From the NCBI GenBank assembly GCA_030608465.1, contig JAUWEC010000009.1, forward strand, positions 1-32,588: a DNA stretch of 32,588 nucleotides. The letters are read 5' to 3'. A program made the translations under genes and the position numbers. Below the pieces are notes generated by a model. That model was given only the letters and a program-made list of their open reading frames with translations, did no database searches and was not told where the DNA came from. This DNA comes from Chloroflexota bacterium. Its GTDB lineage: Bacteria > Chloroflexota > Anaerolineae > Anaerolineales > UBA11858. Positions 907-21,640 of this stretch are shown in pieces. Positions within the stretch are counted from its first letter, which is position 1, and each line of letters begins with the position of its first letter.

Positions 907-2292
907 TTATCCGTTTAATAATCGAGCTGCAGCCTGGTTATGAGTTTCAATCAATTTTGGCAGTTCCAAGGTAGTCAGCTTACCTTCTTTAACCACTAAT
1001 TTTCCGCCTACAACTGTGTAATCTACTTTTACCGGGGCACAAAAGATAACTGCTGCCACCGGATCATGGAGAGCGCCGGCATAGTCAATCCGATTGAGGT
1101 TAATGGCTGTAAAATCAGCTGCTTTTCCCGGTTCAAGGGAGCCAATATCCTTTCGCCCTAAAACCGCTGCCCCACCACGAGTAGCCAATTCCAGTACCTG
1201 CCGGGCTGACATGATCGGGGCATTTTCCTCTCCAGAACGGGAAGCACCTTTTATACCTGCCCGGAGGCGGGCGAGCAGCATAGCCTGCCGGGCCTCTTCA
1301 ATCATGTGGGATCCATCATTACTGGCAGATCCGTCTACACCCAATCCTACATCCACACCTGCCGCAGTAAGATCAAGGATCCGCGCTGCCCCAGAAGCCA
1401 ATCTCATATTTGAGCTGGGACAATGGGCTACACCACAATCATGATCCGCATACACACCGATTTCTTCGTCGTTCAGGTAAACCGAATGCGCAAACCAGAC
1501 ATCAGAACCGATCCAATTAACTTCTTCCATGTAAGCAACCGGTCTTTTGCCGAATTTTTTAATTGTAAAATCTACTTCGTCTTCTGTCTCAGCCAGATGT
1601 GTATGCAGCTGAACGCCATACTCCCGGGCTAGTGCCGCGCTTTCGCGCATTAAATCTCCAGTTACGCTAAACGGAGAACAGGGAGCGAGGACTATTTGGG
1701 TATAGGAACCAGGTGTGCTGTCGTGATAAGCCTCAATCAGCCGTTGAGAATCCTTGAGGATTTGCTTTTCATCTTCGACCACACTATCAGGGGGTAGTCC
1801 GCCTTTGCTCTCACCAAGGCTCATTGATCCCCGGGAAGCATGCAACCGTACACCTACTTCCAGGGCAGCTTCGATTTCATCATCCAGGCGGGAACCATTT
1901 GGAAATAAATATAAATGGTCGGAAGCGGTGGTGCAACCGGAAAGTGCCAATTCAGCCAGGGCAGTTTTAGTCGAAATCCGGATATCTTCCGGTTTCATCC
2001 TGGCCCAAATCGGATAAAGGGTTTTTAACCAGTGAAATAAATTAGCATCCTGCGCTTCCGGAACCACTCGGGTTAATGTCTGATAAAAATGATGATGGGT
2101 ATTTACCAATCCGGGCAGCACTATATGCCCTGTTAAATCCAAAACCTGATCTGCTTTTGTTGGCAGCTGGTCTGACTCTCCGACCTGCTCGATAAAACCG
2201 TCTTTAATAAAAAGACCACCATCCATTATTTCACGGCGGTGATCATCCATTGTAACAACTACTTGAGCATTTTTAATCAGGAGCGTTGACAT
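907..2292 (-). CDS. 8-oxoguanine deaminase-type amidohydrolase
   Basis: This 461-residue amidohydrolase most likely deaminates 8-oxoguanine to urate, or a related purine. The signature NTHHHFYQTLTRVVPEAQDA near residue 65 is the hallmark of the 8-oxoguanine deaminase branch. Further metal ligands lie in HTHLAETEDE, WFAHSVYLND and GVGVDGSASND. The track starts it at 2358, but I prefer the ATG at 2292 (MSTLLIKNAQ), where homology to the family begins. The longer start would place a good sigma-70-type promoter and both palindromic operators inside the gene. A guanine or hydroxy-purine substrate cannot be excluded. It is the first gene of an operon with adenine deaminase, which suggests purine-base catabolism or salvage under a dedicated repressor. 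Confidence 0.85.
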   Translation of the reverse strand: MSTLLIKNAQVVVTMDDHRREIMDGGLFIKDGFIEQVGESDQLPTKADQVLDLTGHIVLPGLVNTHHHFYQTLTRVVPEAQDANLFHWLKTLYPIWARMKPEDIRISTKTALAELALSGCTTASDHLYLFPNGSRLDDEIEAALEVGVRLHASRGSMSLGESKGGLPPDSVVEDEKQILKDSQRLIEAYHDSTPGSYTQIVLAPCSPFSVTGDLMRESAALAREYGVQLHTHLAETEDEVDFTIKKFGKRPVAYMEEVNWIGSDVWFAHSVYLNDEEIGVYADHDCGVAHCPSSNMRLASGAARILDLTAAGVDVGLGVDGSASNDGSHMIEEARQAMLLARLRAGIKGASRSGEENAPIMSARQVLELATRGGAAVLGRKDIGSLEPGKAADFTAINLNRIDYAGALHDPVAAVIFCAPVKVDYTVVGGKLVVKEGKLTTLELPKLIETHNQAAARLLNG

Positions 2293-2313
2293 AGGGAATA
2301 CCTGGGTTTTAAC

Positions 2314-2324
2314 TTGTCTGACAA
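2314..2324. promoter_or_regulatory. Operator-like palindrome, copy 1
   Basis: TTGTCTGACAA is a perfect palindrome around a central base. It fits TNGTNNNACNA, the consensus I recall for FadR-subfamily GntR repressors. It lies at about the expected transcription start of the deaminase operon, where binding would block initiation. Confidence 0.6.
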
Positions 2325-2329
2325 TATCA

Positions 2330-2358
2330 AGTTTAACAAAAATCCCCTCATCTGTCAA
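2330..2358 (-). promoter_or_regulatory. Promoter of the purine deaminase operon
   Basis: Read on the minus strand there is a perfect -35 TTGACA (2353-2358), a 17-base spacer and -10 TAAACT (2330-2335, four of six matches). One palindromic operator abuts the -35 and another begins five bases beyond the -10, so both would overlap bound RNA polymerase. Confidence 0.65.
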
Positions 2359-2483: not shown

Positions 2484-3599
2484 CTAGAACAGAAAATTAA
2501 ACAAATTCTTAGCCAAAACTGGATTCAATAGGGAAAAAACGGCTAAACCCAAGATCAGGACAACACTGAGCAGGGCAATCAATGACAGGCATCCTCCTCG
2601 ATCAATTCTCTTCCGGGGTGTTTTTAGTTTTTTTTCTTTTTCAGGGGGTTCAGCTCTTTCTTTATCATTCTTTTTGGTGATTTCTTTGGTAATCACACCG
2701 AGCGAAGATAACTTATCCCCACTCTTTTGATCTGGCTTTTTTGCTTGTGTTGGAACGATCTTGTCAAAATTAAAATTAATATTGAATCGGCCGCTTTGCG
2801 CTTTCAGCAGCTCATTTTTAAATTCCGCGGCCAGCTGGAATCTGTCGTTAGGATGAACTTGAAGTGCTTTTTCCACTGCTTCTGCAACCCGTTTGGAAAC
2901 TTTTGGATTTCTTTCCCTGACAGGTGTCAGCTCTATCTGGTCCATGGTTTGAGCCAGGCTGTCCTCCGGAGTTAACCCAGTCAGAGTAGTATACAATGTA
3001 GCTCCCAGGGAATAGATATCAGTCCGGGCATCTGTCCTGGCTGCCCCATACTGTTCAGGAGGAGAAAAACCCATGGTCATTGCCCGGGCACCAGTAGTGG
3101 TCGTTTGATCCCCATGGATGATTTTTGCCAGACCAAAATCAACCAGGTACACCCCTCCTCTTGGTGTGATCCTGACATTAGCTGGCTTGATATCTCGATG
3201 CAGGACTACTGGATCCCGGGAATGCATATATGCCAGCGCATCACATAGCGAAGCACCAATAAAAACAACTTCTTCCTCATCAAAGGGACTCAGGCGTTCC
3301 AGTCTCTCCTGGAGATCTTCCCCCTCAATGTAATCCATGATCAGGTACTGACCCTGGTCTTCAATACTGAAGTGGTCTGAAACTCGGGGTAAATTTGCAT
3401 GCCGGAGGTTGGCAAGAATGGTTGCTTCTCGGCGGAATTGCCTGGCATAATCTTCAATCGTAAATAGGTTCTCCTTTACAGCAACTTCGACACCCAGGTT
3501 TTCATCCACCGCGCGGAAAATAGAACCCATTCCACCGTGGCCCAACACCTCGATGATTCGGTATCTGTCAAGAAGGAGCTCACCTTGTTTAAGAGTCAT
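2484..3599 (-). CDS. Membrane-anchored Hanks-type Ser/Thr protein kinase
   Basis: This 371-residue PknB-like kinase has an N-terminal catalytic domain of about 270 residues. It shows a glycine loop LGHGGMGSIFRA, the lysine in VAVKEN, the catalytic HRDIKPAN at about residue 132, VDFGLAK at about 152 and an SPPEQY activation-segment end, so it should be active. A charged Lys/Glu-rich linker (about 275-330) leads to one transmembrane helix (SLIALLSVVLILGLAVF) and only about a dozen residues beyond it. It has no PASTA or other outer sensor, so the domain is tethered to the inner membrane face and probably senses through partners. It starts 20 bases after the gyrB stop and is very likely cotranscribed with it. 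Its substrates are unknown. Confidence 0.9.
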   Translation of the reverse strand: MTLKQGELLLDRYRIIEVLGHGGMGSIFRAVDENLGVEVAVKENLFTIEDYARQFRREATILANLRHANLPRVSDHFSIEDQGQYLIMDYIEGEDLQERLERLSPFDEEEVVFIGASLCDALAYMHSRDPVVLHRDIKPANVRITPRGGVYLVDFGLAKIIHGDQTTTTGARAMTMGFSPPEQYGAARTDARTDIYSLGATLYTTLTGLTPEDSLAQTMDQIELTPVRERNPKVSKRVAEAVEKALQVHPNDRFQLAAEFKNELLKAQSGRFNINFNFDKIVPTQAKKPDQKSGDKLSSLGVITKEITKKNDKERAEPPEKEKKLKTPRKRIDRGGCLSLIALLSVVLILGLAVFSLLNPVLAKNLFNFLF

Positions 3600-3619
3600 T
3601 GATATTTAACTATCGTATC

Positions 3620-5560
<1,941 letters not shown>

Positions 5561-5592
5561 TTACGCAAAACCGCATCATACCATGATTTGGA

Positions 5593-6612
5593 TTATTTCT
5601 CTAACGTCGGACGTTCTTCCACAATCGACTGGGACTTTCCAATCAGTTGAAGTTCTTCAACCCAACGGATCATTTCCTGATAATACACGAAACTTGCTGC
5701 CAACATACCGGTTGTTACAAAAGCATGACCAATAATACTGATCATCATTAACCAGGAATTTTCCGGTGGAACCTGCCACACAATATTCAACCCCTGATTA
5801 ACCAATATTGCCAGCATAATAAATAAACCGGTTTTAAAGAAAGTCATATTAGTTAACCGGATGCTTTGCAGCATGGATTTCCAGGCTTTTTGATGTTGGG
5901 AATATATTCCGTGAGGTGAGAAAAACAATGGAAATATCAGCCAGAAGGAAACGATTCCAAAGAGGATGATCACGAGTTGTCCCAGAGAGACACTGAAAAA
6001 CGAAATGCCCGTAGCTATACAACTTCCAAGCACTAGAATTCCCAGGAAGAGGATAAACCACATCAAGCTCAACAGGAATGATTGGATACTTATCCGGGGC
6101 CACTCGCCCAGAATCGTTCGCCATTTTACTTCATCAAAAAGAGCTGCCTGCCTTACACTAGAAAAATACAAACCACCCAAAGCTAATCCTGTCATAAACA
6201 GAGCAAGGCTAATCATTATCGCGATACTCAACTGGGGTATATCCCAAAAAATCGGGTTACCGATGGGGTTTTCAACTGGCAATATTGAAGATAACAAACT
6301 GAATATGCCTATCGGAAAAGATCTGAGAGTGAGAAATAGATTGAACCGTTCAGCAGCGATCATCCATATTTCTTGACCAGTTTCGATCATCTCCCCGAAG
6401 TCGGGTGATAGAAGTCCTGATACTTCATTCATTTCCGCAATAATCCCCTCAATTAGGGTCGTAATTCGGAGGTGCGGCGCAAACCATAAAACCAGATCTA
6501 ACCCAATCGGAAAAAGCAATAAAATCAAATGTTTGGTGATAGAGTCAAACCCATTTTGGATGGATTTAAGAACGTTGGGGGATTCTGGCAAGGCTATTTT
6601 ATTTATCTTCAT
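5593..6612 (-). CDS. Multi-pass membrane protein of unknown function
   Basis: I do not recognise this 339-residue protein. Hydrophobic stretches suggest six or seven membrane helices, for example LILLLFPIGLDLVLWF near 33, LSIAIMISLALFMTGLALG near 130, SLMWFILFLGILVLG near 178, LVIILFGIVSFWLIF near 210, LFIMLAILVNQGL near 260 and MMISIIGHAFVTTGML near 287. The loop between the first two helices is about 50 residues. No enzyme motif is evident. It begins the gyrB-kinase operon (50 bases to the GTG of gyrB). No Shine-Dalgarno precedes the ATG, and a -10-like TAAAAT lies only nine bases upstream, so the message might be leaderless. Confidence 0.75.
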   Translation of the reverse strand: MKINKIALPESPNVLKSIQNGFDSITKHLILLLFPIGLDLVLWFAPHLRITTLIEGIIAEMNEVSGLLSPDFGEMIETGQEIWMIAAERFNLFLTLRSFPIGIFSLLSSILPVENPIGNPIFWDIPQLSIAIMISLALFMTGLALGGLYFSSVRQAALFDEVKWRTILGEWPRISIQSFLLSLMWFILFLGILVLGSCIATGISFFSVSLGQLVIILFGIVSFWLIFPLFFSPHGIYSQHQKAWKSMLQSIRLTNMTFFKTGLFIMLAILVNQGLNIVWQVPPENSWLMMISIIGHAFVTTGMLAASFVYYQEMIRWVEELQLIGKSQSIVEERPTLEK

Positions 6613-6988
6613 CGATGTACTATTTTACCATACAACATGCTCTCAAAACCCTTTGAAAACCCCTGCTAAATAGCGCTCTAATCCCCTGTTGATACCCCTG
6701 TCAGAGACCATACTAGATTACTATTTAGGGAATGAAATTTCCTTTTTAGAGTTGTTCTGAAGTGATACAATCTCTTCTACTCATTCCATGATAATAATGG
6801 CGGTTATCAAATTGCAAATACGCTGATTTAACGGATAGAAAGAGTGGATTACCTGGGATATGCTTAATGTTATAAGGCATGGAATGCACATTGGACAAAA
6901 TAGATTTACCCAGACACGTTTATCATCAGATCTCGCTGAAGAAGAAACAGATTAGTAATAGCAAGCCGGTTTATAAACTGAGGTAAAA
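6613..6988. other. Divergent intergenic region
   Basis: These 376 bases separate the minus-strand gyrB operon from the plus-strand deaminase-CYTH operon, and I see no gene in them. They hold the -10 element listed separately and an inverted repeat TGATAA-N9-TTATCA (6789-6809). A weak plus-strand promoter candidate is TTACCT-N16-TATAAG (6849-6876), about 110 bases before the deaminase ATG. None is strong enough to assign a regulator. Confidence 0.5.
6622..6630 (-). promoter_or_regulatory. Extended -10 element upstream of the gyrB operon
   Basis: The minus strand reads TGGTAAAAT nine bases before the ATG at 6612. TG one base upstream of the hexamer is the extended -10 form. No good -35 is seen. 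The 11-base string TTGTATGGTAA recurs upstream of rpmB. Confidence 0.4.
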
Positions 6989-8971
6989 ATGACCAAGAAG
7001 ATTGATACTTTATTCATAAATGCCCACGTTCTCTGCATGGATGATTCATTTACCAATTTCGAAAATGGAGCCGTTGCCGTTCTGGATGATCATATCCATG
7101 CTGTCGGACCCACAGATGAGCTTAAGAATACATGCCCCGCCGGGGAAGTGATCGACTGTGAAGGTAAGGTCCTCATGCCAGGTCTGGTAAACGCCCATAC
7201 ACACGTCCCGATGAATTTGCTTCGCGGACTAGCTGACGACCTCCGACTGGATGTATGGCTTCTTGGTTACATCATGCCTGTTGAGCGGGAATTCGTGAAC
7301 CCAGAATTCGTCCGACTGGGCACTTCCCTCGCCTGCGCTGAATTGATACGATCCGGGGTTACCTCTTTTGCAGATATGTATTATTTTGAAGACCATGTTG
7401 CAGAAATGGCTGCGGAAGCGGGGCTGCGGGCTATCTGCTGTCAGACCATTCTGAAATTCCCATCGCCAGATGCAGCTTCTTACAGAGAAGCTTTGGCTTC
7501 TTCTGAAATAATGATCAAAAAATGGAAAAACCATCCTCTGATCACACCGGCTGTTGCTCCCCACGCTGCCTATACATCGACAGTTGATATCCTGGTTTCA
7601 GCAACTGTTTTAGCCCAAAAATATGATGTGCCATTACACATTCACGTCGCTGAAACAGCTCAGGAAGTTGAAGACAGCTTAAGAGATCTGGATATGCCGA
7701 TAGTTCCCTACATTGAACAGCAGAACGTGCTGAAATCCAAAGTTATCGCTGCTCATTGTGTTCATATCGATGAACGGGAAATGCATACCCTGCAGAAATA
7801 TGGTGTCGGTGTTGCTCACAATCCCACCTCAAATTTAAAATTGTCATCTGGGATCGCCCCGATCAACCGCATGCTGGAGCTTGGTCTCAATGTTGGAATT
7901 GGTACAGATGGTGTGTCATCCAATAACGATCTGGATATGTTCGAAGAAATGCGGCTGGCAGCGCTGCTAGCCAAAGGAAGCAGTGGAGATCCCACAGTTG
8001 TTCCGGCCAGGACAGCTGTCGCCATGGCCACCAGCATGGGTGCAAAATCAATCCACCTGGGAGATCAGACCGGTTCTATCGTTAAGGGGAAGAAGGCAGA
8101 TCTGATCCTGGTAAACCTCCATACGCTGCATAATACTCCCCAGTTTAAAAATGACCCGGACGGCGTTTACGCACAGCTTGTTTATTCTACAAAATCTACC
8201 GATGTCACTGATGTGATGGTTAATGGAAAATGGCTTATGCGGTCCCGGGAATTATTAACTGTGGACCTGAGTAAACTGCTGCCAAAAGCCCAGGCCCTTG
8301 CGGAGGAAATTGACAAATTCCTGATCCAACGGTTCCAATCTGTCTACTCCAAATTGATTGCGGTCGGCGGCGCAGAAGAACAGGAAAGTTATGAGGTCCA
8401 GGTCAAAGTAAAAGTGGATGACCCTCAAGCCGTCATTGATAAGCTGCTCCAGTCTGAATTGGATATTCAGTATTTCCGTCACTACCATGAATACGATACC
8501 TATTTCGAATTTGAAGATCCTGAGGAATGTTGGCTCCGCTACCGTGAAGATGAATTTATAGATGAGGACGGCAATGTGGAGAACATCCGCTACAGACTTA
8601 CCTTAATCGGACCAAAACGCGAACGTCACTTCCCACAAGATGTTTTATTATCACGGAGCAGGTTTATTGCCCCCGCGCCACAAAGTCTCCGGTTTTATCG
8701 AGAATACTTCGAACCCTCGAATGAAACCTACATAGAGAAAGACCGGCGGCGGTGGAAAGTCCGTTTTCGTGATATCGAATTCTATATCAATGTAGACCGC
8801 CTGGACGACCCCGCTCTGGGAACCTTCCTTGAAGTTAAAAGCCGCACCTGGAGCCTCGATGATGCAGAGGAAAAAGCTCAAATTGCTGAAGACTTGTTAA
8901 GCCTGCTGGGCACTTTTCCCCAAGAGCGCGAATCTCTGGATTACGTACAGATTGTCTGGTCAAAATCCTGA
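6989..8971 (+). CDS. MTA/SAH deaminase-like amidohydrolase fused to a CYTH domain
   Basis: This 660-residue protein has two parts. Residues 1 to about 450 are an amidohydrolase of the 5'-methylthioadenosine/S-adenosylhomocysteine deaminase group. They show NAHTHVPMNLLRGLADDL, HIHVAETAQEVED, AAHCVHIDE and GIGTDGVSSNNDLDM, which supply the metal ligands and the usual active-site pattern. Residues from about 463 to 660 look like a CYTH (triphosphate tunnel) domain: YEVQVKVKV as a variant ExExK (second Glu replaced by Gln471), YHEYDTYFEF, LRYREDE, RLTLIGPKRE and the late FLEVKSRTWS followed by a terminal helix. GAGG sits six bases before the ATG. The frame is open throughout, so this is a genuine fusion. 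It is the first gene of a four-gene operon. Its substrate is inferred from family only. Confidence 0.85.
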   Translation: MTKKIDTLFINAHVLCMDDSFTNFENGAVAVLDDHIHAVGPTDELKNTCPAGEVIDCEGKVLMPGLVNAHTHVPMNLLRGLADDLRLDVWLLGYIMPVEREFVNPEFVRLGTSLACAELIRSGVTSFADMYYFEDHVAEMAAEAGLRAICCQTILKFPSPDAASYREALASSEIMIKKWKNHPLITPAVAPHAAYTSTVDILVSATVLAQKYDVPLHIHVAETAQEVEDSLRDLDMPIVPYIEQQNVLKSKVIAAHCVHIDEREMHTLQKYGVGVAHNPTSNLKLSSGIAPINRMLELGLNVGIGTDGVSSNNDLDMFEEMRLAALLAKGSSGDPTVVPARTAVAMATSMGAKSIHLGDQTGSIVKGKKADLILVNLHTLHNTPQFKNDPDGVYAQLVYSTKSTDVTDVMVNGKWLMRSRELLTVDLSKLLPKAQALAEEIDKFLIQRFQSVYSKLIAVGGAEEQESYEVQVKVKVDDPQAVIDKLLQSELDIQYFRHYHEYDTYFEFEDPEECWLRYREDEFIDEDGNVENIRYRLTLIGPKRERHFPQDVLLSRSRFIAPAPQSLRFYREYFEPSNETYIEKDRRRWKVRFRDIEFYINVDRLDDPALGTFLEVKSRTWSLDDAEEKAQIAEDLLSLLGTFPQERESLDYVQIVWSKS

Positions 8972-8974
8972 ATT

Positions 8975-9820
8975 ATGAAAATAGCTGCCCTAGCAGATAT
9001 ACACGGTAATTATCAAGCCTTAATTACCATTATCGATCATGTTGAACGCTGGAAACCCGACCTGGTTTATGTGTTGGGGGATATTATCAACCGTGGACCG
9101 CGCTCCAGAGATTGTCTGCATTTGATCCAGCAAAAACTAGAATCTGATTCCTGGCAGGCTATCACTGGAAATCATGAACAATATGTCCTTAGATTTAACA
9201 GTCCAGATGCCCCCAAAGCCGGGAATCAATTTGAACTGTTAAGAATAATCCATTGGACGTATCAAACTCTTTCTCCCGGGGATGTTCAATCGGTCACGGA
9301 ATTGCCGCTGGAGATCGAAACCCAATTACCGTGGAATCATATTTTAAAAGCCGTTCATGCATCTATGAGCGGAATCCGGGTTGGCATCTACCCGCATTCC
9401 AGCCAAAAGGAAATCCTCGGCCTCATTCAACCTGATGTGAATTTGTTCCTGATAGGTCATACCCATCAACCGCTGGTAAAGACCATTGGAAAAACAACTG
9501 TAGTAAATGCCGGATCCATCGGCCTTCCATTTGATGGCGATACCCGGGCCGGATATGCCCAAATCACACAAGAGAATAACCAGTGGACAGGCAAAATCAT
9601 TCGTATTGAATATGACCTAGAAGCCGCACATCAGGACTTTTTCAGCACACAATTTATTCCGGAAGGAGGTCCATTAGCTGAACTTGTCCTCACAGAGATG
9701 AAACTTGGCTGGCCTCAATTATCACACTGGTTTCGCCTCTATGAACAAGCCGTTTTGGACCACAAAATCAGTATAGAAGATGCAGTAGAACTATATTTGA
9801 AAAATCCTAACCTGGAATAA
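8975..9820 (+). CDS. Calcineurin-like metallophosphoesterase
   Basis: This cytoplasmic two-metal phosphoesterase has 281 residues. The metal-binding motifs occur in order: ADIHGNY (about residue 7), VLGDIINRGP (about 34), TGNHEQY (about 66), a His in KAVHAS, and LIGHTHQP (about 161) followed by VNAGSIGLP. This ordering matches the YfcE/ApaH-like group of small phosphodiesterases or phosphatases; the substrate cannot be read from sequence. It begins three bases after the deaminase-CYTH stop, so translation is probably coupled. The C-terminal 70 residues beyond the core are not recognised. Confidence 0.85.
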   Translation: MKIAALADIHGNYQALITIIDHVERWKPDLVYVLGDIINRGPRSRDCLHLIQQKLESDSWQAITGNHEQYVLRFNSPDAPKAGNQFELLRIIHWTYQTLSPGDVQSVTELPLEIETQLPWNHILKAVHASMSGIRVGIYPHSSQKEILGLIQPDVNLFLIGHTHQPLVKTIGKTTVVNAGSIGLPFDGDTRAGYAQITQENNQWTGKIIRIEYDLEAAHQDFFSTQFIPEGGPLAELVLTEMKLGWPQLSHWFRLYEQAVLDHKISIEDAVELYLKNPNLE

Positions 9821-9840: not shown

Positions 9841-10647
9841 ATGTCTAATCAGAGATTAGAGTTCGCAAAATACGCTGCAATAGAAACAGGAAAAATATTG
9901 CTGGACCATTTCCATAACGGGAATCGGCAAGGAGAATTAAAGACAGATAAAACCCTGGTTACAAAAGCGGACCGGGTTGCTGATCGCTTATTGCAGGACC
10001 TGATCGAGAAAGAATTTCCGGCTGATGGAATTCTCAGTGAGGAAGGCAGTACAGTTTTTCCTGAGAATGAACATGTCTGGGTGCTGGATCCTCTCGATGG
10101 TACTGTCAACTTCAGCCTGGGGCTGCATTATTGGGGGGTATCTGTCGCCCATCTGAAACATGGAGTTCCGCAGACTGCCGCGGTATATTTTCCCGTTGTT
10201 GAAGAACTGTATACAGCATCCAGTGGCGAGGGGGCAGAATTAAATGGAACACCAATCTTGGTGTCAAATCCTCCTGTTGATTCTCCCTACGCTGTGTTTG
10301 TTCATTGTTCCAGAATGCACAGCCTCTATCAGGTGACCCTTCCCTATAAAACACGTTCATTGGGTGCGGCAGCGTATCATTTATGTCTGATCACAAAAGG
10401 AACTGCCCTTCTGGCTTTTGAAAGCACACCTAAATTGTGGGATTTTGCAGCCAGCTGGTTGATAGTGAAAGAAGCCGGAGGGTTGATTCGGGCAAATGGA
10501 AGTACCCAGCCCTTCCCTGCCCAGAACGGATTTGATTATAATGATCATCAATATTCAATTATCGCTGCCGCCTCCGAAGCAGTAATGGATAAAGCGGCAG
10601 CCGGAATTATTAATAACAAATTATCAGTAGAGGAGAAAAGACTATGA
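9841..10647 (+). CDS. Inositol monophosphatase family phosphatase
   Basis: This 268-residue Mg-dependent, lithium-sensitive-type phosphatase shows the family motifs ILSEEGS (about residue 61), [12 protein letters not shown] (about 80, canonical DPxDGTxN) and [16 protein letters not shown] (about 200). Likely substrates are inositol phosphate or 3'-phosphoadenosine-type compounds. It lies 20 bases after the phosphoesterase and overlaps the following aldo/keto reductase by four bases (ATGA), so the operon is tight. A phosphatase beside a metallophosphoesterase and a CYTH-bearing protein suggests a shared phosphorylated-metabolite theme, but that is inference. Confidence 0.87.
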
Positions 10648-11636
10648 AGTACAGATATTTGGGAAAATCAGGATTACAAGTGTCGGCATTATCATTTGGA
10701 TCCTGGGTTACATTTGGAAGCCAGGTAGATGTTGACAAAGCTGTTGAACTGATGACGATTGCCTACGATGCCGGGGTGAACTTTTTTGACAACGCAGAAG
10801 TGTACAGTAATGGACTTGCGGAAACAATTATGGGAGAGGTTATAAAGAAGACCGGTTGGAAACAAAAGGACCTTGTGCTCTCAACTAAAATATTCTGGGG
10901 TGGTGAAGGTCCTAATGAAAGTGGACTGTCCAGAAAACATATTATTGAAGGGTTAGATGGGTCCCTGGCAAGGATGGGTGTCGAATATGTGGATTTGATA
11001 TTCGCCCATAGGCCTGACATCCACACTCCGATTGAGGAAACTGTCTGGGCAATGAATCACGTCATCAATCAAGGCAAGGCTTTCTACTGGGGTACCAGCG
11101 AGTGGTCTGCACAGCAAATAATGCAAGCGCATGCGTTTGCCAGGCAGGAACATCTTATTCCTCCCTTGATGGAACAGTCTCAATACAACATGTTTCACAG
11201 GGACCGCGTCGAAAAGGAGTATCACCGGTTATACAGCGAAATTGGGTTAGGAACAACTATCTGGAGCCCGTTGGCAAGCGGATTATTAACCGGAAAATAC
11301 AACCAGGGAATTCCTAAGGATTCCAGGGCAAACCTTGAAGGGTATGAATGGCTCAGGAAAAGCTTCACGGATGAGACGGCCAAGGAGCGGATAGAGAAAG
11401 TGATTAAGTTAGCCAGCGTCGCTGAAATAATTGGTTGCACTACGGCACAATTAGCCATCGCCTGGTGTCTGCTGAACCCGAATGTGAGCACAGTCATTAC
11501 CGGGGCATCAAAACCATCTCAGGTGAAGGACAATATGAAAGCGATTGAATTTGTAGATAGACTCACCACTGAAGTGGTGGAAACAATCGAAGAAATCCTG
11601 GACAATAAGCCGGAGTTGGCAACTGATCTCAGATAA
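10644..11636 (+). CDS. Aldo/keto reductase (Kv-beta/YghZ-like)
   Basis: This 330-residue NADPH-dependent oxidoreductase has a TIM-barrel fold. It begins [19 protein letters not shown], typical of the potassium-channel-beta-like branch. Catalytic residues are visible in [10 protein letters not shown] (Asp, Tyr), LSTKIFW (Lys) and IFAHRPD (His). Cofactor-binding elements include [13 protein letters not shown] and [14 protein letters not shown] near the C-terminus. AGGAG precedes the ATG, which overlaps the stop of the phosphatase gene. It is the last gene of the operon, and a hairpin follows about 60 bases later. The physiological carbonyl substrate is unknown. Confidence 0.9.
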
Positions 11637-11694: not shown

Positions 11695-11724
11695 CAGCGG
11701 CTGAGTTTTGACTATCAGCCGCTG
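11695..11724. terminator. Hairpin between convergent genes
   Basis: CAGCGGCTGA and TCAGCCGCTG form a perfect 10-bp stem around a 10-base loop. The stem overlaps the purB stop codon. T-tracts are poor on either strand (ATTTCT on plus), so it is only a probable bidirectional terminator for the aldo/keto reductase and purB transcripts. Confidence 0.5.
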
Positions 11725-13106
11725 ATTTCTACCTTGATTTTTCTAGCGAGCTTTTTCGCTCTTTCCACTGCATCCCCCAGATAAGCTGATCCATCCATCA
11801 CTTTTCTAATTTCCGCTTGAGATAAATATTCCAGTAAAGTTGGATCGTTTGAAACCAACTCCAACAAAGGATTTACCCCCCCCTCCCGCACGTCAGTCCA
11901 TGCCTGCAGGGAATGGTTTCGCAGCACTTGATGCATTTGCTGGCGATCCGCGCCGGCTTTGCTGAGGGTCATTAACAGCTTTTCAGTAGCCGCGAACGGG
12001 CCGTAATCTTGTAAGTTTTGTTTAATCCCGTGTTCAAAGACCTGAAGACTGGAAAATATTTCCCTGCATTCACGAAGCATTTCATCAGCAATGAGGAAAG
12101 CTTCAGGAAGGATCATCCGCCGGTTTGCGCTGTCATCCAGGGTTCGTTCGAGCAAGGAATGAGCCGCATTATCCCAGGCGGTCCTGGGAAGCTGTGCCAG
12201 GTACCTACCCAGCGAGTTAATCTTTTCAGCTATTACCGGATTTTGTTTAAAAGGCATAGCTGAAGATCCAATCTGTTTCTCTCCAAATGGCTCTGCCAAT
12301 TCAGCAAAGACCGGAGATTGCAGGATCCGCAAATCAAATGCCATTTTGTATAGAACGGCACCCAAACCTGAAAGGTTGGACAGTACCTGATAATCTTGAA
12401 TGCGGGGATAAGTTTGAGTAACAACCTCAAAAAACTCGATACCAAGTTTTTTCGCTAATCTGTCCTGAAATACTGCCAGGTTTTCCTCACCAATCAAGGA
12501 TGCATAAGACGCGCTGGTCCCCACTGCTCCGCAAAATCCTTTTGATTTTATCCCGCTCTCAAGCGCAATTAATAAACGGTAATAAATCAATAAATCCTGA
12601 GCTGGCTGGGCTAAACGGTACCCCAATGTTGTCGGTTCTGCCGGCTGTAGATGAGTGAACCCGATCATGGGCAATTCTGCCCAGCGGTCAATTAAGGCAA
12701 CCATCACATCCAGCAGATCACGAAGTTCCTGAAGAATCAGACCCAGAGCATCTTTAAGCTGGAGTATGAGTGCATTATCCTTGATATCCATCGAGGTCGC
12801 GCCCAGATGAAGTACTCCGCCTGCCGTTGGGCATTGATCTGCGAACACCTGAAGTTCCGCCATCAGATCATGTTGAATTTGCTCTTCTATCTTTAAAGAT
12901 TGAGCCAGGTCAATTTCTCCCGCACTGGTCCGTATTTCATTTGCCTGATCTGTTGTGACCAACCGGTATTCAGTTTGAACTTCTGCCAGACTTGCCCAGA
13001 TCTCTCTCCACAGCAGTCTGGTATTGTATTCTCCCCAAATTTCCCTCATCTGTGGTGAACCGTACCGCCAAGAGAAAGGAGATTGATAGGTTTTTTGGTC
13101 TTTCAT
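11715..13106 (-). CDS. purB: Adenylosuccinate lyase
   Basis: This fumarase/aspartase-superfamily lyase releases fumarate from adenylosuccinate and from SAICAR in purine synthesis. The 463 residues contain the three conserved regions: LGATSMDIKDNA at about 102, FTHLQPAEPTTLG at about 147, and the signature loop GSSAMPFKQNPVIAEK at about 276 with the catalytic serine. The length suits PurB. Tyr/Lys variation in the signature leaves a small chance of a related cycloisomerase. AGGA precedes the ATG, and a TATAAT hexamer lies 58 bases upstream. It stands as a single gene, convergent with the aldo/keto reductase and divergent from the kinase operon. Confidence 0.85.
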   Translation of the reverse strand: MKDQKTYQSPFSWRYGSPQMREIWGEYNTRLLWREIWASLAEVQTEYRLVTTDQANEIRTSAGEIDLAQSLKIEEQIQHDLMAELQVFADQCPTAGGVLHLGATSMDIKDNALILQLKDALGLILQELRDLLDVMVALIDRWAELPMIGFTHLQPAEPTTLGYRLAQPAQDLLIYYRLLIALESGIKSKGFCGAVGTSASYASLIGEENLAVFQDRLAKKLGIEFFEVVTQTYPRIQDYQVLSNLSGLGAVLYKMAFDLRILQSPVFAELAEPFGEKQIGSSAMPFKQNPVIAEKINSLGRYLAQLPRTAWDNAAHSLLERTLDDSANRRMILPEAFLIADEMLRECREIFSSLQVFEHGIKQNLQDYGPFAATEKLLMTLSKAGADRQQMHQVLRNHSLQAWTDVREGGVNPLLELVSNDPTLLEYLSQAEIRKVMDGSAYLGDAVERAKKLARKIKVEISG

Positions 13107-13351: not shown

Positions 13352-15235
13352 CTGGAGACTAGAAAAATAACCCAGAACCTGGACCAGAGATCAAAATCTC
13401 TTGAGTACCTTCAACCTGGCACGAAATTAGAAGGCCGATATAAAATCCTGTCAACGGTAGGTCGGGGGGGAATGGGAGCGGTGTATCGGGCACAAGACCT
13501 CCGGTTTAAGGTTGAAAAAATTGTTGCCGTCAAAGAAATGATTAACCAGGCAACAGACCCTGATATCCAGGCAACGGTTATTGAAACATTTGAACGAGAA
13601 GCCAATATTTTGGCAACAGTCAGCCATCCCTCAATTCCCACAATCTATGACTATTTCACGCTTGGTGTCCGTTCCTACCTGGTAATGGAATTCGTTGAAG
13701 GTGACAATCTGGAAATTAAACTTCAGCAAAGACGGGCTCCCTTCCAGGAGGAGGAAGCAATCGGGTGGGCGATAGCTCTCTGCGATGTTCTGGACTATCT
13801 CCATACTCATGAACCTGAACCAATCATCTTCCGGGATATCAAACCGGCCAATGTCATGATCACCAGGCGAAATCAGGTCCGGTTGGTGGACTTTGGTATC
13901 GCAAAAACCTTCCAAACTGGTGCAAAAGGAACTATGATCGGCACCGAAGGGTATTCTCCTCCTGAACAGTACCGAGGTGAAGCTTCCCCGCAAGTTGATA
14001 TTTACGCCTTGGGTGCGACCCTGCATCACCTGCTTACCAATCAGGATCCACGGACTGAACCTCCTTTTACATTTGATGAACGTCCAATCCGAGCAACAAA
14101 CCCGAGCATCTCAGTTGCCCTGGAAACCATCATCAATACGGCTTTACAGTACAACCCGCCAGACCGGTTTGAAAATGCGGCAATTATGAGAAAAGCCTTG
14201 GTCGCACTTGCACAGAAAACCGGCATGTTCGAGAATGAAATCTCGATTGCCCAAGCGACCCAATATTTCCAGGATCAAACCCATTCACCCCTCTGGACAT
14301 TTACCTGCGAGGATGAAATCCGCGGAACTGCAAGTTATCAGGATGGTGTCCTATATATCGGTTCGTACGATCACAATCTCTATGCTCTTGAAGCAACAAA
14401 CGGAAAATTTATTTGGAAATATGCAGCGGATGGCGGCATCGTCAGCAAACCGGAAATTCATGATAATAAGGTATATTTCGGTTCAACCGACCAATATATT
14501 CACGCCATATCCTGCCGGAATGGGAAAAAAGTCTGGGTGCAATCGACCGATGGGGCAATTTACTCCTCGCCGACGATTGCAGAAGGACATCTCTTTATTG
14601 GTTCCGATGATGAATATCTGCATGTATTAAATATATTAGCCGGAAGAGAAGCCTGGCGGGTGAATCTCGGTTCACCGGTCAGATCCAGCCCAATCGTTAT
14701 CGCAGACATGGTATATATCGGCAGCGAAAACGGAGAAATTCAGTGTTACGATTTCAGCGGAAATATCAAGTGGAGAACCGCCGCTAAACGAGCTGTCACA
14801 GCGTCACCCCATTTTTATGACAATGTTATCTACATCACATCTCTAGATGCTGTCCTGTATGCAATCGATGCGAAATCCGGCTGGGTAATCTGGCGGTACC
14901 GGATGGAAAATGGCTCAATCAGCACACCCACAACGCATGAGAAACACGTTTATGTAGGCTCAACAGACAACACCTTTTACTGCATTAATATCAATTCCTC
15001 CAAAAAAGTATGGAGTTTTGATACAGATAATCAAATTAACAGCTCACCTTTTTTCTATAAAGATTCCATCTATTTTTGCAATATTGATGGTATGGTTTAC
15101 AGTCTGCACGCCGCAAGCGGCCGCTTGCGCTGGAAATACCAAGCTGAGGGACAAATCACCGGATCTCCGATCATTGTTGACGATGTCCTTTATATTGGCG
15201 CTGCAGATAAAAAAATATATGCTTTGCCAGCTTAA
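13352..15235 (+). CDS. Soluble Ser/Thr kinase with C-terminal PQQ-type beta-propeller
   Basis: This 627-residue protein has a Hanks kinase (about residues 25-290) followed directly by a propeller (about 305-627), with no membrane helix, so it should be cytoplasmic. The kinase shows VGRGGMGAVYRA (about 36), VAVKEM, FRDIKPANV (about 159, Phe replacing the usual His) and VDFGIAK (about 179). Seven repeats of the form SSP..x..VYIGS..x..LYALxxxxGxxxW follow, and the first and last half-repeats (SPLWTFTCEDEIR and GSPIIVDDVLYIGAADKKIYALP) could pair to close an eighth blade. The track start at 13472 falls inside the glycine loop and cannot be right. The frame is open back to 13331 with no ATG, GTG or TTG. 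CTG at 13352, six bases after GGGAGG, is the best start. It is the first gene of a six-gene signalling operon. Confidence 0.85.
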   Translation: METRKITQNLDQRSKSLEYLQPGTKLEGRYKILSTVGRGGMGAVYRAQDLRFKVEKIVAVKEMINQATDPDIQATVIETFEREANILATVSHPSIPTIYDYFTLGVRSYLVMEFVEGDNLEIKLQQRRAPFQEEEAIGWAIALCDVLDYLHTHEPEPIIFRDIKPANVMITRRNQVRLVDFGIAKTFQTGAKGTMIGTEGYSPPEQYRGEASPQVDIYALGATLHHLLTNQDPRTEPPFTFDERPIRATNPSISVALETIINTALQYNPPDRFENAAIMRKALVALAQKTGMFENEISIAQATQYFQDQTHSPLWTFTCEDEIRGTASYQDGVLYIGSYDHNLYALEATNGKFIWKYAADGGIVSKPEIHDNKVYFGSTDQYIHAISCRNGKKVWVQSTDGAIYSSPTIAEGHLFIGSDDEYLHVLNILAGREAWRVNLGSPVRSSPIVIADMVYIGSENGEIQCYDFSGNIKWRTAAKRAVTASPHFYDNVIYITSLDAVLYAIDAKSGWVIWRYRMENGSISTPTTHEKHVYVGSTDNTFYCININSSKKVWSFDTDNQINSSPFFYKDSIYFCNIDGMVYSLHAASGRLRWKYQAEGQITGSPIIVDDVLYIGAADKKIYALPA

Positions 15236-15276
15236 TGGTTTAACAGCCTCTACTCAACTACAGCCAACGAGAGAAA

Positions 15277-16200
15277 ATGATAAACAGACTACTTTCAACG
15301 CTCAAGAAACAATTCCAATCAAAAGCAACTGATCCGCACTCCCAGAGTCAGGATACGGAAGCTTCAGCTATAACAAAAGAGCTGGATAAAGTAACCACCC
15401 CGGTTGAAACGGAAACCGTTGGTTACAGTTCCCCTCTTATAAATGTAGGGTACGGGTTATCTTCAGGGAAACAAAGAACACACAATGAAGACGCGTTCTT
15501 TACCCTGACGACAATGTTTTCTTTTAATGAAAGCGAGATTCCATTTGGTTTGTATATCGTTGCTGATGGCATGGGGGGTCATAAAAACGGAGAAATTGCC
15601 AGTGAACTTGCCATCAGAACCATCGTCGGTTATATCCTGACCGAAATATATACCCCCATGATGAGCCTTAATCCTCAACCAAGCGAGTTGTCATACCGGG
15701 AAGTATTTCAATCCGGGATTGAAAAAGCGAACAATGAAATATTAAAGAACTCATACGGTGGGGGGACAACAGTTACAGCTATCTTGATTGTAGGTGAACA
15801 AATGACAATCGCTCACGTTGGCGACAGCCGGGTGTACTCGGTAGACGAGGAAGGAAACTTGGAAGCATTGACCCGTGATCATTCACTGGTGAAACGCCTT
15901 CAGGAATTAGGACAAATCACACCGGAGGAAGCCGCTGTTCACCCGCAGCGTAATGTTTTGTATCGTGCTCTCGGCCAGGGAGAACCATTTGAACCAGAGA
16001 TTATTTCCACCAGCCGACCAGATAAAGGATCTCTCCTTATCTGCTCAGATGGCTTGTGGAGTATATTAACCCAAGAAATTATCAGTGAAATCATTAAATC
16101 CTGCACCTCCCCCCAGCAAACCTGCGACAAATTAATCGACGCGGCAAATGATGCTGGCGGTCCGGATAACATCTCGGCTATTTTTGTTGAAATATCCTGA
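15277..16200 (+). CDS. PP2C-type Ser/Thr protein phosphatase
   Basis: This 307-residue Mg/Mn-dependent phosphatase would reverse phosphorylation by the kinase encoded 41 bases upstream. PP2C motifs appear in order: KQRTHNEDAFF (about residue 66), VADGMGGHKNGE (about 95), GGGTTVTAI, AHVGDSRVY (about 180), LTRDHSLV, LLICSDGLW (about 250) and AGGPDNISAIFVEI at the C-terminus. All metal-binding aspartates are present. The first 55 residues are polar and probably disordered, without a membrane segment. The next gene begins three bases after the stop, which implies coupled translation. Confidence 0.93.
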   Translation: MINRLLSTLKKQFQSKATDPHSQSQDTEASAITKELDKVTTPVETETVGYSSPLINVGYGLSSGKQRTHNEDAFFTLTTMFSFNESEIPFGLYIVADGMGGHKNGEIASELAIRTIVGYILTEIYTPMMSLNPQPSELSYREVFQSGIEKANNEILKNSYGGGTTVTAILIVGEQMTIAHVGDSRVYSVDEEGNLEALTRDHSLVKRLQELGQITPEEAAVHPQRNVLYRALGQGEPFEPEIISTSRPDKGSLLICSDGLWSILTQEIISEIIKSCTSPQQTCDKLIDAANDAGGPDNISAIFVEIS

Positions 16201-16203
16201 ACT

Positions 16204-17661
16204 ATGACCAATAAGACTGATTTTTACAACAGGTTGAATATCAATACTGGAGCTTCCGAGCAAGCGATTAAAAAGGCTTACCGGCTTGCGGTTAAAAAAT
16301 CTCATCCTGATGTAAATAAAAATGATGGGGCTACCCAGCTGTTCCTGGATATCCAGGAAGCGTATAAAATCCTATCAGATCCCAGCAAAAAAGGTGCGTA
16401 CGACGAGGGTCGAGAACCTCTCGGGACACAGAGTGCTGTCCATATCGCTACCGAATACAGCAAGGATGCATTAACCAAGCTGGATGAACCTCAAATCATT
16501 TACGCCCTGGTTGATATAGTCTCCACCCAGACAGAGAAAGACACCACGGATCTTCCCCTCAATATCTCGTTCGTTCTCGATAATTCCACTTCAATGGACG
16601 GGGCCAGGCTGGAAGTATTAAAAGGTGCCACGAAAGAAATTATTCAAGAGCTGAACGATGATGATATTATCTCGGTTATCAGCTTTAATGATCGCGCGAA
16701 AGTGCTGCTCTCCAGCCAATCGCAGCCCCCGATGGCTCATGTTGAATCAAACATCAACAGCCTGTTCGCAGAAGGCGGCACAGAAATTTACCAGGGTTTA
16801 GAAGCAGCTTTTGAAGAAATCAAAAAAAATTCCGCCTTTAATTATGTAAACCACATCATTCTAATCACTGATGGACACACCTATGGTGATGAGGAAAACT
16901 GCATCACTCTCGCAAGATCAGCTGCCAAATTAGATATTGGAATCAGCGGATTGGGTATTGGAATTGAATGGAATGATGAATTTATTGATGAACTCTGTGC
17001 AAACACGGGTGGGCAGTGTATGTTTATCCAGGAACTGGATCAGGTGAAAAATTTCCTGAAACAAAGTATAACCTCCTTGCAGGAAGCTTATTCAAGGCAT
17101 ATCTTGTTGGAGATAATTCCTGCTCCCGGAGTTAAGATGCTTTCCGCATTCAGGATTTTACCGGAAGCCCTACCTTTGCCCACTCAGGAAGAGTTTTCGC
17201 TGGGAATCCTGAAGAAGGACAAACCCCACAGGATTTTGTTCGAATTCCTGGTGAATCCTATTCCTGAAGAAATTGATCAGGTGGTCATTGCTTCGGGAGC
17301 GTTCTTCCTGAAACGCAAATCCCGTGACTTCACCATCCCCTTCACACTGAATCGCCCAATAATTGCAGAATCCGAAGAATTTCCACCCCCGCCAGAAGAA
17401 ATCTTCAGAGCAATTTCTCATCTGACATTCTACCGTCTACAGGAAAAAGCCCAGAAAGATGTTGCTAGCGGTAACCCAGGAACAGCGTTCCAGCGGCTGA
17501 TCAACTTGTCTTCGCATTTAATGGCAAAGGGTGAGGAATCCCTGGCGAAAATCGCGATGAATGAAGCGGATTATATTAAATCACACAACAATTTCAGTCC
17601 TACCGGAAAAAAGCAGCTAAAGTATGGAACCATTCGGCTGATGCTTCCTGAAAAAACATGA
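16204..17661 (+). CDS. J-domain/VWA-domain fusion protein
   Basis: This 485-residue protein joins an N-terminal DnaJ-type J domain (residues about 5-72, with KKAYRLAVKKSHPDVN carrying the HPD motif needed to stimulate Hsp70) to a von Willebrand A domain (about 115-290). The VWA domain has an intact metal site: FVLDNSTSMDG (DxSxS), the Thr in EGGTEIYQG, and ILITDGHTYGDEE. A beta-rich and then helical C-terminal part (about 295-485) resembles the tail of bacterial VWA/chloride-channel-like proteins, ending GKKQLKYGTIRLMLP. No membrane helix is seen. Between the PP2C and FHA genes it probably acts as a scaffold linking the kinase/phosphatase pair to client proteins or Hsp70. That role is inference. 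Confidence 0.88.
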   Translation: MTNKTDFYNRLNINTGASEQAIKKAYRLAVKKSHPDVNKNDGATQLFLDIQEAYKILSDPSKKGAYDEGREPLGTQSAVHIATEYSKDALTKLDEPQIIYALVDIVSTQTEKDTTDLPLNISFVLDNSTSMDGARLEVLKGATKEIIQELNDDDIISVISFNDRAKVLLSSQSQPPMAHVESNINSLFAEGGTEIYQGLEAAFEEIKKNSAFNYVNHIILITDGHTYGDEENCITLARSAAKLDIGISGLGIGIEWNDEFIDELCANTGGQCMFIQELDQVKNFLKQSITSLQEAYSRHILLEIIPAPGVKMLSAFRILPEALPLPTQEEFSLGILKKDKPHRILFEFLVNPIPEEIDQVVIASGAFFLKRKSRDFTIPFTLNRPIIAESEEFPPPPEEIFRAISHLTFYRLQEKAQKDVASGNPGTAFQRLINLSSHLMAKGEESLAKIAMNEADYIKSHNNFSPTGKKQLKYGTIRLMLPEKT

Positions 17662-18179
17662 TTACCTGTAGAGTGTGCAATAACCAGGAATATCACGGCG
17701 TTTTCTTTTGCGGTGAGTGTGGATCTCAGCTGGTATTAGCCGATGATAAAAACGTGAACACATTCATCTATCCCTCTCAGGCAAGAGGATTAGAACTTGA
17801 TATTTCCAACACCATTCCCAAGAAATTGCTGGAAAATAAAACATTCATCCTTTATTATTTGGAACAAAAGGAAGTGATCAATATTCCTGATCAGAACGAA
17901 TTTACTATCGGGCGTATTGTAGATGGACAGGTTATTACTCCGGATGTGGATCTGAATCCATACAAAGCCTTCGACAAAGGTGTTTCCAGGCTCCATGCGA
18001 CAATCCGCATCAGTTCGGAGAAAAACAAAATTCACGTAATAGATCTAGGATCTGCCAATGGATCCAGTGTAAATGGATACGATATTCCAGCGAATTCAGA
18101 AGTACCTCTTAATCACGGTGACGTGCTAACATTGGGAAAATTCAGTATGAAGGTGATCCTGCCGAAGGAAATGAAATAA
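17658..18179 (+). CDS. Zinc-ribbon and FHA domain protein
   Basis: This 173-residue protein starts with a small zinc ribbon (CRVCNNQEYHGVFFCGECG, two CxxC pairs). A linker leads to an FHA domain at about 75-165 with FTIGR, GVSRLHATI and IDLGSANGSSVNG, the last two being the phosphothreonine-binding loops. FHA domains read phosphothreonine, so it is the expected reader for the kinase in the same operon. The start overlaps the J/VWA stop by four bases (ATGA), indicating translational coupling. The ribbon could mediate dimerisation or partner binding; no DNA-binding role can be shown. Confidence 0.9.
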   Translation: MITCRVCNNQEYHGVFFCGECGSQLVLADDKNVNTFIYPSQARGLELDISNTIPKKLLENKTFILYYLEQKEVINIPDQNEFTIGRIVDGQVITPDVDLNPYKAFDKGVSRLHATIRISSEKNKIHVIDLGSANGSSVNGYDIPANSEVPLNHGDVLTLGKFSMKVILPKEMK

Positions 18180-18190
18180 GGAAGGATATT

Positions 18191-18433
18191 ATGTCAATTT
18201 CAGTCATAGTCCACATTAGAAATGCAGAACCTATGCTTGCGGAAATTGAAGAGTTGCCCCAATCGAGCGACACGTTAATCAAACTCAGCAATCCGCGACA
18301 GCGAGATGGAAAGGATTTGATATTTCTTGAGCACAATGTGGTAAACGTCATTTGGCCCCTTGCAGAAATCAGCTTCATCGAAATCCTACCAGGAGAAACA
18401 GCAGAAGAAGTGATCAGCTTCATCAGGGAATAA
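18191..18433 (+). CDS. Conserved-looking 80-residue protein of unknown function
   Basis: I do not recognise this protein. It is 80 residues long, acidic, and predicted by eye to be mainly beta strand ([39 protein letters not shown]) with a short C-terminal helix ([10 protein letters not shown]). It has no signal or membrane segment and no cysteines. It sits 11 bases after the FHA gene and five bases before the response regulator, and has the ribosome site AAGGA. This placement and a clean frame argue that it is real and works in the same pathway, perhaps as a small adaptor. Confidence 0.7.
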
Positions 18434-18438
18434 CGCTT

Positions 18439-19167
18439 ATGAATTCTGAAAGCTCAAAATATAAAATACTTGTGGTGGATGATGAAAAACGCATGGTGAG
18501 ATTTATCCAATTGAACCTGGAGCAAGATGGTTATCAAGTTCTCACTGCCTTTAATGGATCGGAAGCCCTGGAACAGGTGCGCACCCAGCTTCCGGATTTA
18601 ATCCTACTAGATATCATGATGCCGGATATCAATGGGTTTGAAGTGTTAAAAAGAATCAGAGAGGTCAATACCGTTCCCGTTATTATGCTAACTGCAAAAG
18701 GCGAGGAAGAGGACCGAATTCAAGGACTGGAACTGGGCGCGGATGATTATATAACCAAACCATTCAGTCCCCGGGAAATGGTCAGCCGCATTCGCGCAGT
18801 ATTGCGCCGGACACGGTCATTTAAGGAAGATCAGATTGACTTAATCAAAGTTGATGACCGGCTGACCATTGACTTTTCACGCCGTGAAGTATGGGTTGAA
18901 GATAAAAAAGTTGATCTTCGGCCAACGGAATATCGCCTCCTCTACCATCTGGTAAAAAACGCCGGTTGGGTCAATACGCACGAGCAGCTGCTGTCAAAAG
19001 TTTGGGGTTTTGAGTATCAGGATGAACCTCATTATGTTCGCCTCTATGTAAATTATCTTCGAAAAAAATTAGAGCAAGACCCCTCAAATCCCAAATACAT
19101 ATTAACTGAGCGGGGTGTCGGATACCGGTTTGTTAATTACCGAAGGGACCAAGAGAAAGAAGAATAA
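18439..19167 (+). CDS. OmpR/PhoB-family response regulator
   Basis: This 242-residue two-domain transcription factor has a receiver (residues about 10-125) with the acidic pair VVDDEK, phospho-acceptor Asp in [10 protein letters not shown], Thr in VIMLTAKGE and Lys in [10 protein letters not shown] winged-helix DNA-binding domain (about 145-238) contains [39 protein letters not shown] and [11 protein letters not shown]. The ATG at 18439 ([11 protein letters not shown]) is preferred over the track's TTG at 18352, which gives 29 residues unlike the family. No histidine kinase is present. Being last in the kinase/FHA operon suggests Ser/Thr-kinase input or a distant sensor. Confidence 0.92.
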
Positions 19168-19316
19168 AATCGGGCGATCCTTTTCATTACCATCCCCCTG
19201 ATCAATCAAAGAAATAAATGGAATCCTGGGCCATATGTTTAATAATAGATAGGATCGGGGACTGATTTCCTTCAAGTTTCCCGTGGAGTTCACAGTAACC
19301 AAATAAATGAGCTTAC

Positions 19317-19345
19317 TTGCCAGCTTGTACAGACTAGTTTATACT
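19317..19345 (+). promoter_or_regulatory. Sigma-70-type promoter of the NarL-type regulator
   Basis: TTGCCA, a 17-base spacer and TATACT give five of six matches to each consensus box. The -10 ends 29 bases before the ATG at 19375. This is the best promoter seen for a monocistronic gene in the window. Confidence 0.7.
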
Positions 19346-19374
19346 CTTTCCAGAAAAATACAGGAGTCTAGAAA

Positions 19375-20046: not shown

Positions 20047-20080
20047 GTTCAGTTTAGAGATCGATCCAGATAATCAATAG

Positions 20081-21511: not shown

Positions 21512-21599
21512 TTTTTCTCCAATGGGAATGTTATCTTGAGCATCCTGCCTGATTTCTCTCACAGTGTACTCCATCCAGATATCACCGTCAATCAGTTGA

Positions 21600-21608: not shown

Positions 21609-21640
21609 CAAACCGGTGGAATCTGAAAGGAAGCTACCCC

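Follow-up and report, generated by a model that had tools for sequence, protein, structure and literature searches.

Fusion of an MTA-deaminase-like amidohydrolase to a CYTH/triphosphate-tunnel domain with altered metal-2 ligands in Chloroflexota

CYTH domains are known chiefly as triphosphatases and, in a few cases, as cyclases, and most of their roles in the cell are still unsettled (PMC8233210). Metal 1, which bridges the protein and the triphosphate, is bound by the first glutamate of the ExE motif, and the water-activating metal 2 is bound by both glutamates of ExExK and the second glutamate of ExE; mutation of the metal-site glutamates lowers hydrolysis (PMC4641920, PMC8233210). Members with incomplete sites have been described. 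The triphosphate-tunnel (TTM) domain of the polyphosphate polymerase Vtc4 has metal site 1, lacks site 2, and keeps the RxR motif, and its acidic patch is replaced (PMC4641920, PMC9911596). Plant AtTTM1 and AtTTM2 lack both ExExK and ExE and use pyrophosphate in vitro (PMC8233210). CYTH domains have been found fused to HD, exopolyphosphatase, nucleotidyl kinase, CHAD, and phosphoribulokinase domains, and an amidohydrolase is not among these partners (PMC8233210). A literature search of incomplete coverage found no paper naming both CYTH and amidohydrolase. The described MTA and MTA/SAH deaminases, such as those of P. aeruginosa (4dyk, 4gbd), C. violaceum (4f0r), and T. maritima (TM0936), have no CYTH tail.

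The window analyzed here, a stretch of 32,588 nucleotides from a member of the Anaerolineales, encodes a protein in which the two domains are joined. The open reading frame at 6989-8971 on the plus strand has 660 codons in one continuous, stop-free frame, and it comprises the following parts.

6989..8971, plus strand: fused gene, adenosine-type amidohydrolase and CYTH/TTM domain (660 aa; open reading frame calls, Pfam, and AlphaFold)
6989..8308, plus strand: head, COG0402-type amidohydrolase (residues 1-440)
8267..8365, plus strand: linker helices (residues 427-459; secondary structure of the AlphaFold model)
8375..8968, plus strand: tail, CYTH/triphosphate-tunnel domain of eight strands and a plug helix (residues 463-660)

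The AlphaFold model of the full chain, built from a 93-sequence alignment, has a pLDDT of 92.6 and a pTM of 0.88, and the whole-chain pTM indicates a defined domain arrangement. The fusion is an undescribed architecture and its tail a fixed CYTH subfamily without metal site 2, each of a known kind. That an amidohydrolase runs unbroken into a CYTH-like domain had been proposed in a first-pass annotation of the sequence, and the single reading frame, Pfam, profile-profile comparison, AlphaFold, and Foldseek agree on this.

The head resembles stand-alone deaminases of adenosine derivatives. Pfam Amidohydro_1 matches residues 61-416 (E 1.9e-72), and the closest solved relatives are the MTA deaminases 4f0r, 4dyk, 4gbd, and 3lnp (35-39% identity). 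Three of these bacterial structures (4dyk, 4gbd, and 4f0r) have 35-38% identity to the head over its full length and share all of its metal ligands and its catalytic acid. From one end to the other the head can be aligned with stand-alone MTA deaminases, whose fold it has, and its superposition on solved structures of the MTA type gives 1.2-1.6 A. All six residues of the HxH, HxxE, H, and D signature of MTA/SAH-type deaminases are present, and each is found in 100% of 157 fused proteins.

7196..7204, plus strand: HxH, metal ligands H70 and H72
7643..7654, plus strand: HxxE, metal ligand H219 and catalytic acid E222
7754..7756, plus strand: metal ligand H256
7907..7909, plus strand: metal ligand D307

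The earlier assignment of the head as an MTA/SAH-type deaminase is supported. Among curated models the best is PRK09045, with 459 bits against a cut-off of 540, and the MTA/SAH model PRK15493 gives 301 bits against 779; the head is placed near the MTA, SAH, and 5'-deoxyadenosine deaminases, yet it is under every equivalog cut-off shown. Taken together, its sequence suggests a deaminase of a 6-aminopurine nucleoside of the MTA/5'-deoxyadenosine/adenosine class.

Other amidohydrolases are encoded nearby and elsewhere in the genome. A paralogue of the head is encoded on the opposite strand of the window at a distance of 5 kb (907-2358, minus strand; Amidohydro_1 E 2.4e-59), and there is a further weak match at 592-807. 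An unfused amidohydrolase with 34% identity to the fused head is found elsewhere in the genome (G000:C230, locus L223, about 3100-8200). It adjoins an MTA/MTI-type (inosine-type) phosphorylase with an INWAAG motif, an MtnA-like protein, and a class II aldolase, and the locus looks like a 5'-deoxyadenosine/MTA salvage locus resembling the DHAP shunt. The fusion is therefore not the only candidate MTA deaminase of the genome.

The tail has the fold of the CYTH superfamily. Pfam CYTH matches residues 468-646 with an E value of 7.4e-4 and 19.8 bits, just under the 23.2-bit cut-off. CYTH is matched at E<=1 by 45 of 93 diverse homologous tails (best E 7.8e-9), and several fused genes exceed the cut-off in whole-genome searches, for example those of G158 (36.5 bits) and G116 (36.7 bits). 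Comparison of the tail family with canonical CYTH proteins of Chloroflexota gave a probability of 94% and an E value of 8.7e-8. A profile search of PDB sequences with the tail gave nothing significant, 2aca matching at E 3.1, so the homology of the tail rests on Pfam, profile-profile comparison, and fold. In the AlphaFold model the strands are at residues 463-476, 492-507, 515-524, 530-540, 553-562, 578-593, 596-607, and 611-620, and a helix at 623-639 follows the last strand, giving a tunnel-plus-plug layout. The eight-stranded closed tunnel with plug helix that characterizes the superfamily (PF01928) is thus present, and the tail modelled alone has the same fold as in the full chain. The top Foldseek matches of the tail are all CYTH/TTM proteins (2een, 3n0z, 7ns9, AtTTM1, AtTTM3, ThTPase, and ygiF; best E 5e-9). 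Both the CYTH match and the tunnel barrel on which the first-pass annotation had staked its domain assignment were found. No protein of the window's genome assembly (86% complete) is above the Pfam CYTH cut-off, which apparently leaves the fusion as the one CYTH-like protein encoded there.

The tunnel of the tail is highly conserved, and part of its metal-binding residues are replaced in every member. Conservation was counted over 157 distinct fused proteins, and canonical CYTH sequences from the class (n=15 for the comparison of glutamates) were the alignment reference for the tail.

8393..8407, plus strand: ExQxK, E469/Q471/K473 (157/157); ExExK in canonical proteins
8495..8503, plus strand: DxY, D503/Y505 (157/157); motif from PMC8233210
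8537..8545, plus strand: RxR, R517/R519 (157/157)
8654..8662, plus strand: R556 (97.5%) and R558 (98%), the latter at the site of the beta-5 Glu in canonical RxE
8687..8710, plus strand: LRFYREYF helix, residues 567-574; signature of the fused family
8738..8752, plus strand: KxRxR, K584/R586/R588 (157/157)
8789..8797, plus strand: NxD, N601/D603 (157/157); D603 is the beta-7 Asp
8831..8839, plus strand: ExK, E615/K617 (157/157); ExE in canonical proteins, the metal-1 Glu being kept and the metal-2 Glu replaced

The tail shares the tunnel, the plug helix, the DxY, RxR, and KxR motifs, and the position of the metal-1 glutamate with SaTTM, ygiF, AtTTM3, ThTPase, and class IV adenylyl cyclase, and the substrate-ligand motifs of catalytic CYTH/TTM proteins (RxR, KxR, and DxY) are all found in 157 of 157 tails. 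It differs from canonical members in having ExQxK for ExExK, ExK for ExE, and RxR for RxE, in the loss of the beta-4 lysine, and in being joined C-terminally to an amidohydrolase. The ExQxK motif, first noticed in the one protein of the window, is invariant across the fused family, and the catalytic hallmark ExExK is absent from it. At the positions of Q471, R558, and K617 the canonical proteins of the class have an invariant Glu, at sites that published work attributes to metal 2 and its acidic patch (PMC4641920, PMC8233210), and at the beta-4 TxK lysine position (residue 540) the fused tails are variable and mostly hydrophobic. Two of the three metal-2 ligands are Gln and Lys in every member, and a further Glu of the acidic patch is now Arg. 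Because the metal-2 ligands are replaced while the metal-1 Glu and DxY, RxR, and KxR are conserved, it appears that the water-activating site has been lost and the phosphate site kept. The substituted residues are themselves invariant, which indicates that the tail is not decayed.

The synthesis of cAMP, raised in the first-pass annotation as one activity of CYTH enzymes, is not supported, given the absence of three signatures of class IV adenylyl cyclases (CyaB) taken from PMC8233210: there is no HF four residues before the ExExK position (E469), and R517 and K617 are invariant where the cyclase has a small residue and Ala, respectively. The thiamine-triphosphatase signature is not general in the family either, as the stacking aromatic of W/YxRxR is present at residue 515 in only 31 of 157 proteins (16 Trp and 15 Tyr). 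The residue is mostly Arg among the 157, and the protein of the window itself has W515. The scarcity of this aromatic also distinguishes the fusion from plant TTM1/TTM2, which otherwise resemble it in having two domains and a CYTH domain without ExExK and ExE but with DxY; their partner is a P-loop kinase-like domain. Proteins of the ygiF CYTH-CHAD type likewise join a bacterial CYTH domain to another domain, but their CYTH is catalytic, the CHAD partner binds polyphosphate, and there is no deaminase. By analogy, the nearest parallel to the metal-site pattern of the tail is Vtc4, with site 1 present, site 2 absent, RxR conserved, and the acidic patch replaced, in the tail largely by basic residues. 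Unlike Vtc4, the fusion is soluble and joined to a deaminase, and polymerase activity is not indicated.

The most probable interpretation, to which we assign a probability of about 0.45, is that the protein is an adenosine-type nucleoside deaminase regulated by a non-hydrolyzing sensor of a phosphate ligand. The zinc-type head would deaminate a 6-aminopurine nucleoside (of the 5'-methylthioadenosine, 5'-deoxyadenosine, or adenosine class), and the permanently joined tunnel domain would no longer activate water. E615 would hold the substrate-bridging metal, the arginines and lysines of the tunnel would hold phosphates, and the metal-2 site would have been rebuilt with Gln, Arg, and Lys. With the phosphate ligands kept and the water-activating site rebuilt, the tail should bind a polyphosphate-bearing ligand, such as an NTP, tripolyphosphate, short polyphosphate, or an alarmone, and when bound it may tune the deaminase. 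A phosphorylated ligand of the tail is likely. The earlier suggestion that the CYTH part binds rather than hydrolyzes is well supported by the replacements at Q471, K617, and R558 and by the conserved phosphate ligands, far beyond the one altered residue on which it first rested.

The high conservation could instead reflect catalysis of a different reaction. According to the main alternative, which we consider unlikely, the tail is still an enzyme with one-metal or altered chemistry (pyrophosphatase-like or phosphotransfer), and the protein is bifunctional. The conservation of the tunnel is higher than a relic would show, and the tail retains DxY and RxR, like the plant TTM1/2 cluster that acts on pyrophosphate (PMC8233210); the activity of AtTTM1/2 means that loss of ExExK and ExE is no proof of total loss of activity. 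In addition, Vtc4 is still a catalyst with metal site 1 only and an acidic patch exchanged for basic residues (PMC4641920). However, every member has lost two of the three glutamates that position the attacking water through metal 2, residue 540 at the site of the canonical beta-4 lysine is hydrophobic or variable, and no equivalent of the catalytic plug-helix lysine of Vtc4 has been demonstrated.

It is improbable that the tail is only a module for assembly or stabilization, with a tunnel that binds nothing important. Structural or regulatory domains of the TTM fold exist, and Mediator Med18 is also among the fold matches of the tail. An interface could be formed by the helices of the linker and by the LRFYREYF helix. 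Invariance is concentrated in the tunnel, however, where 11 of 14 positions are invariant, compared with 13 of 177 in the rest of the tail (Fisher p 3e-9). The LRFYREYF helix lies between beta 5 and beta 6 and is nearly invariant, and none was seen in the aligned canonical CYTH proteins; it is possibly a domain interface or a lid.

The distribution of the fusion and the phylogeny of the head show that the fusion is old and has a single origin. A survey for the same architecture, suggested by the first-pass annotation, found the tail in 55 of the 60 related genomes searched from the order (56/61 with the window's own genome), at one copy per genome, and in 89 of 150 genomes sampled across the class. 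In a phylum-wide sample it is present in 40 of 201 genomes, 18 of which are outside the class. Identity reaches 91% with named records, which belong to Anaerolineales/Chloroflexota genomes. Among heads with at least about 44% identity every complete gene is fused, and two close heads that seemed unfused (G064 and G182) proved to be genes cut by contig ends. The next relatives of the head, at 41-43% identity, are stand-alone deaminases of about 440 residues, and the fused clade is separate from them: in a tree with 47 fused heads and 16 unfused ones, all fused sequences are on one side of a branch with support of 100/99. This single clade and the lack of complete, close, unfused homologues underlie the conclusion of an old, single origin. 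Head and tail distances are correlated (Spearman 0.84), and no splitting was seen. No stand-alone tails were seen among the class genomes, where a few short open frames are present, and none was found in the plasmids and viral contigs searched. The unfused sister deaminases (loci L214-L218) come from two families, and in one of these, fused and unfused forms occur together in three genomes. In two class genomes of family f36 (G116 and G186) the fused gene has one in-frame TAG.

The gene neighborhood of the fusion is variable. In the window it is followed by three genes on the same strand.

8975..9820, plus strand: metallophosphoesterase (Pfam); beside the fusion only in close relatives
9841..10647, plus strand: inositol monophosphatase (IMPase)-family enzyme (Pfam); a neighbor in a minority of relatives
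10644..11636, plus strand: aldo/keto reductase (domain matches)

The two phosphatase genes had been noted earlier and read as an operon with the fusion. The genes are indeed present, but that functional reading is not supported, the arrangement being local to close relatives. Over 150 loci a metallophosphoesterase comes next in 16 and an IMPase in another 12, chiefly in genomes close to that of the window, and the order of metallophosphoesterase, IMPase, and aldo/keto reductase is confined to close relatives. Elsewhere the flanking genes, as named from reading of their sequences, are CinA, M14 peptidase, CoaE, RNase III, or MoeA. Most Anaerolineales loci have CinA or M14 peptidase upstream, and loci outside the class share neither these nor the phosphatase and aldo/keto reductase genes. 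The changing flanks look like drift. The phosphatases are outside the conserved unit and should not be used as a guide to the function of the fusion. Past these genes, on the opposite strand, is an adenylosuccinate lyase of purine synthesis (11715-13106, minus strand), which is kept in close relatives. No RNA families were found in the window, and promoter and terminator scans were not above shuffles.

The neighbors that point to a pathway are nucleoside phosphorylases, suggesting nucleoside salvage. An MTA phosphorylase is convergent with the fusion, at a distance of about 20-450 bp, in ten genomes from six families (G061, G099, G130, G108, G076, G201, G078, G113, G080, and G089), and a purine nucleoside phosphorylase is beside or near it at three other loci (L129, L137, and L151). 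Most of the 150 fusion loci have no adjoining purine gene. The MTA phosphorylases next to the fusion carry a TDYD motif, which we take to mark specificity for 6-aminopurines (adenine type); these enzymes would then use MTA itself and not the deaminated product. Phylogenetic profiles of SAH hydrolase, MTA phosphorylase, and MtnA gave no signal, these being near universal in the class, and MTA/SAH nucleosidase is above the cut-off in only 16 of 150 class genomes and is uninformative.

These neighbors also bear on the hint of the first-pass annotation at metabolism of a phosphorylated adenosine compound. Under one such reading the phosphates of the head's own substrate would sit in the CYTH tunnel. 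Such an arrangement would suit two domains that are never separated and evolve together, and a tunnel that retains its phosphate ligands. It is nevertheless quite unlikely: the full-length head aligns with stand-alone deaminases of unphosphorylated nucleosides, the phosphatase neighbors are local only, and the phosphorylases indicate nucleosides instead. A phosphorylated substrate of the head has no support.

A role of the protein as an SAH deaminase that supplies an S-inosylhomocysteine route, like those of Methanocaldococcus and Thermotoga, is highly unlikely. In its favor are the homology to the deaminases DadD and TM0936 and the SAH hydrolase of the window's genome, which is of the archaeal type without the 40-residue insertion (PMC10978960). 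But the motif of this hydrolase is HVTTE (HxTxE), which marks enzymes that prefer SAH to SIH (PMC10978960), and SAH hydrolase is found in 143 of 150 class genomes, with or without the fusion. The SIH route (DadD with SIHH) needs an HxExK motif at this site and was rejected.

The preferred reading, a nucleoside deaminase with a regulatory tail, may be extended. In a more specific and rather doubtful version, the non-hydrolyzing tunnel sensor would read the level of polyphosphate, tripolyphosphate, or NTP and gate purine-nucleoside salvage, and this control would go back to the ancestor of at least two Chloroflexota classes. If true, the tail would represent a new class of bacterial sensor, in which a triphosphate-tunnel domain is fixed in a non-hydrolyzing state. 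A clade-wide fusion with a pathway enzyme makes a regulatory role of the CYTH fold in bacteria directly testable. Automatic annotation of these proteins as 'amidohydrolase' or 'adenylate cyclase' would be corrected.

The window also has a gene cluster at 13472-22639, encoding eukaryote-type protein kinases (one with a PQQ-like beta-propeller), a PP2C phosphatase, and a DnaJ-VWA protein.
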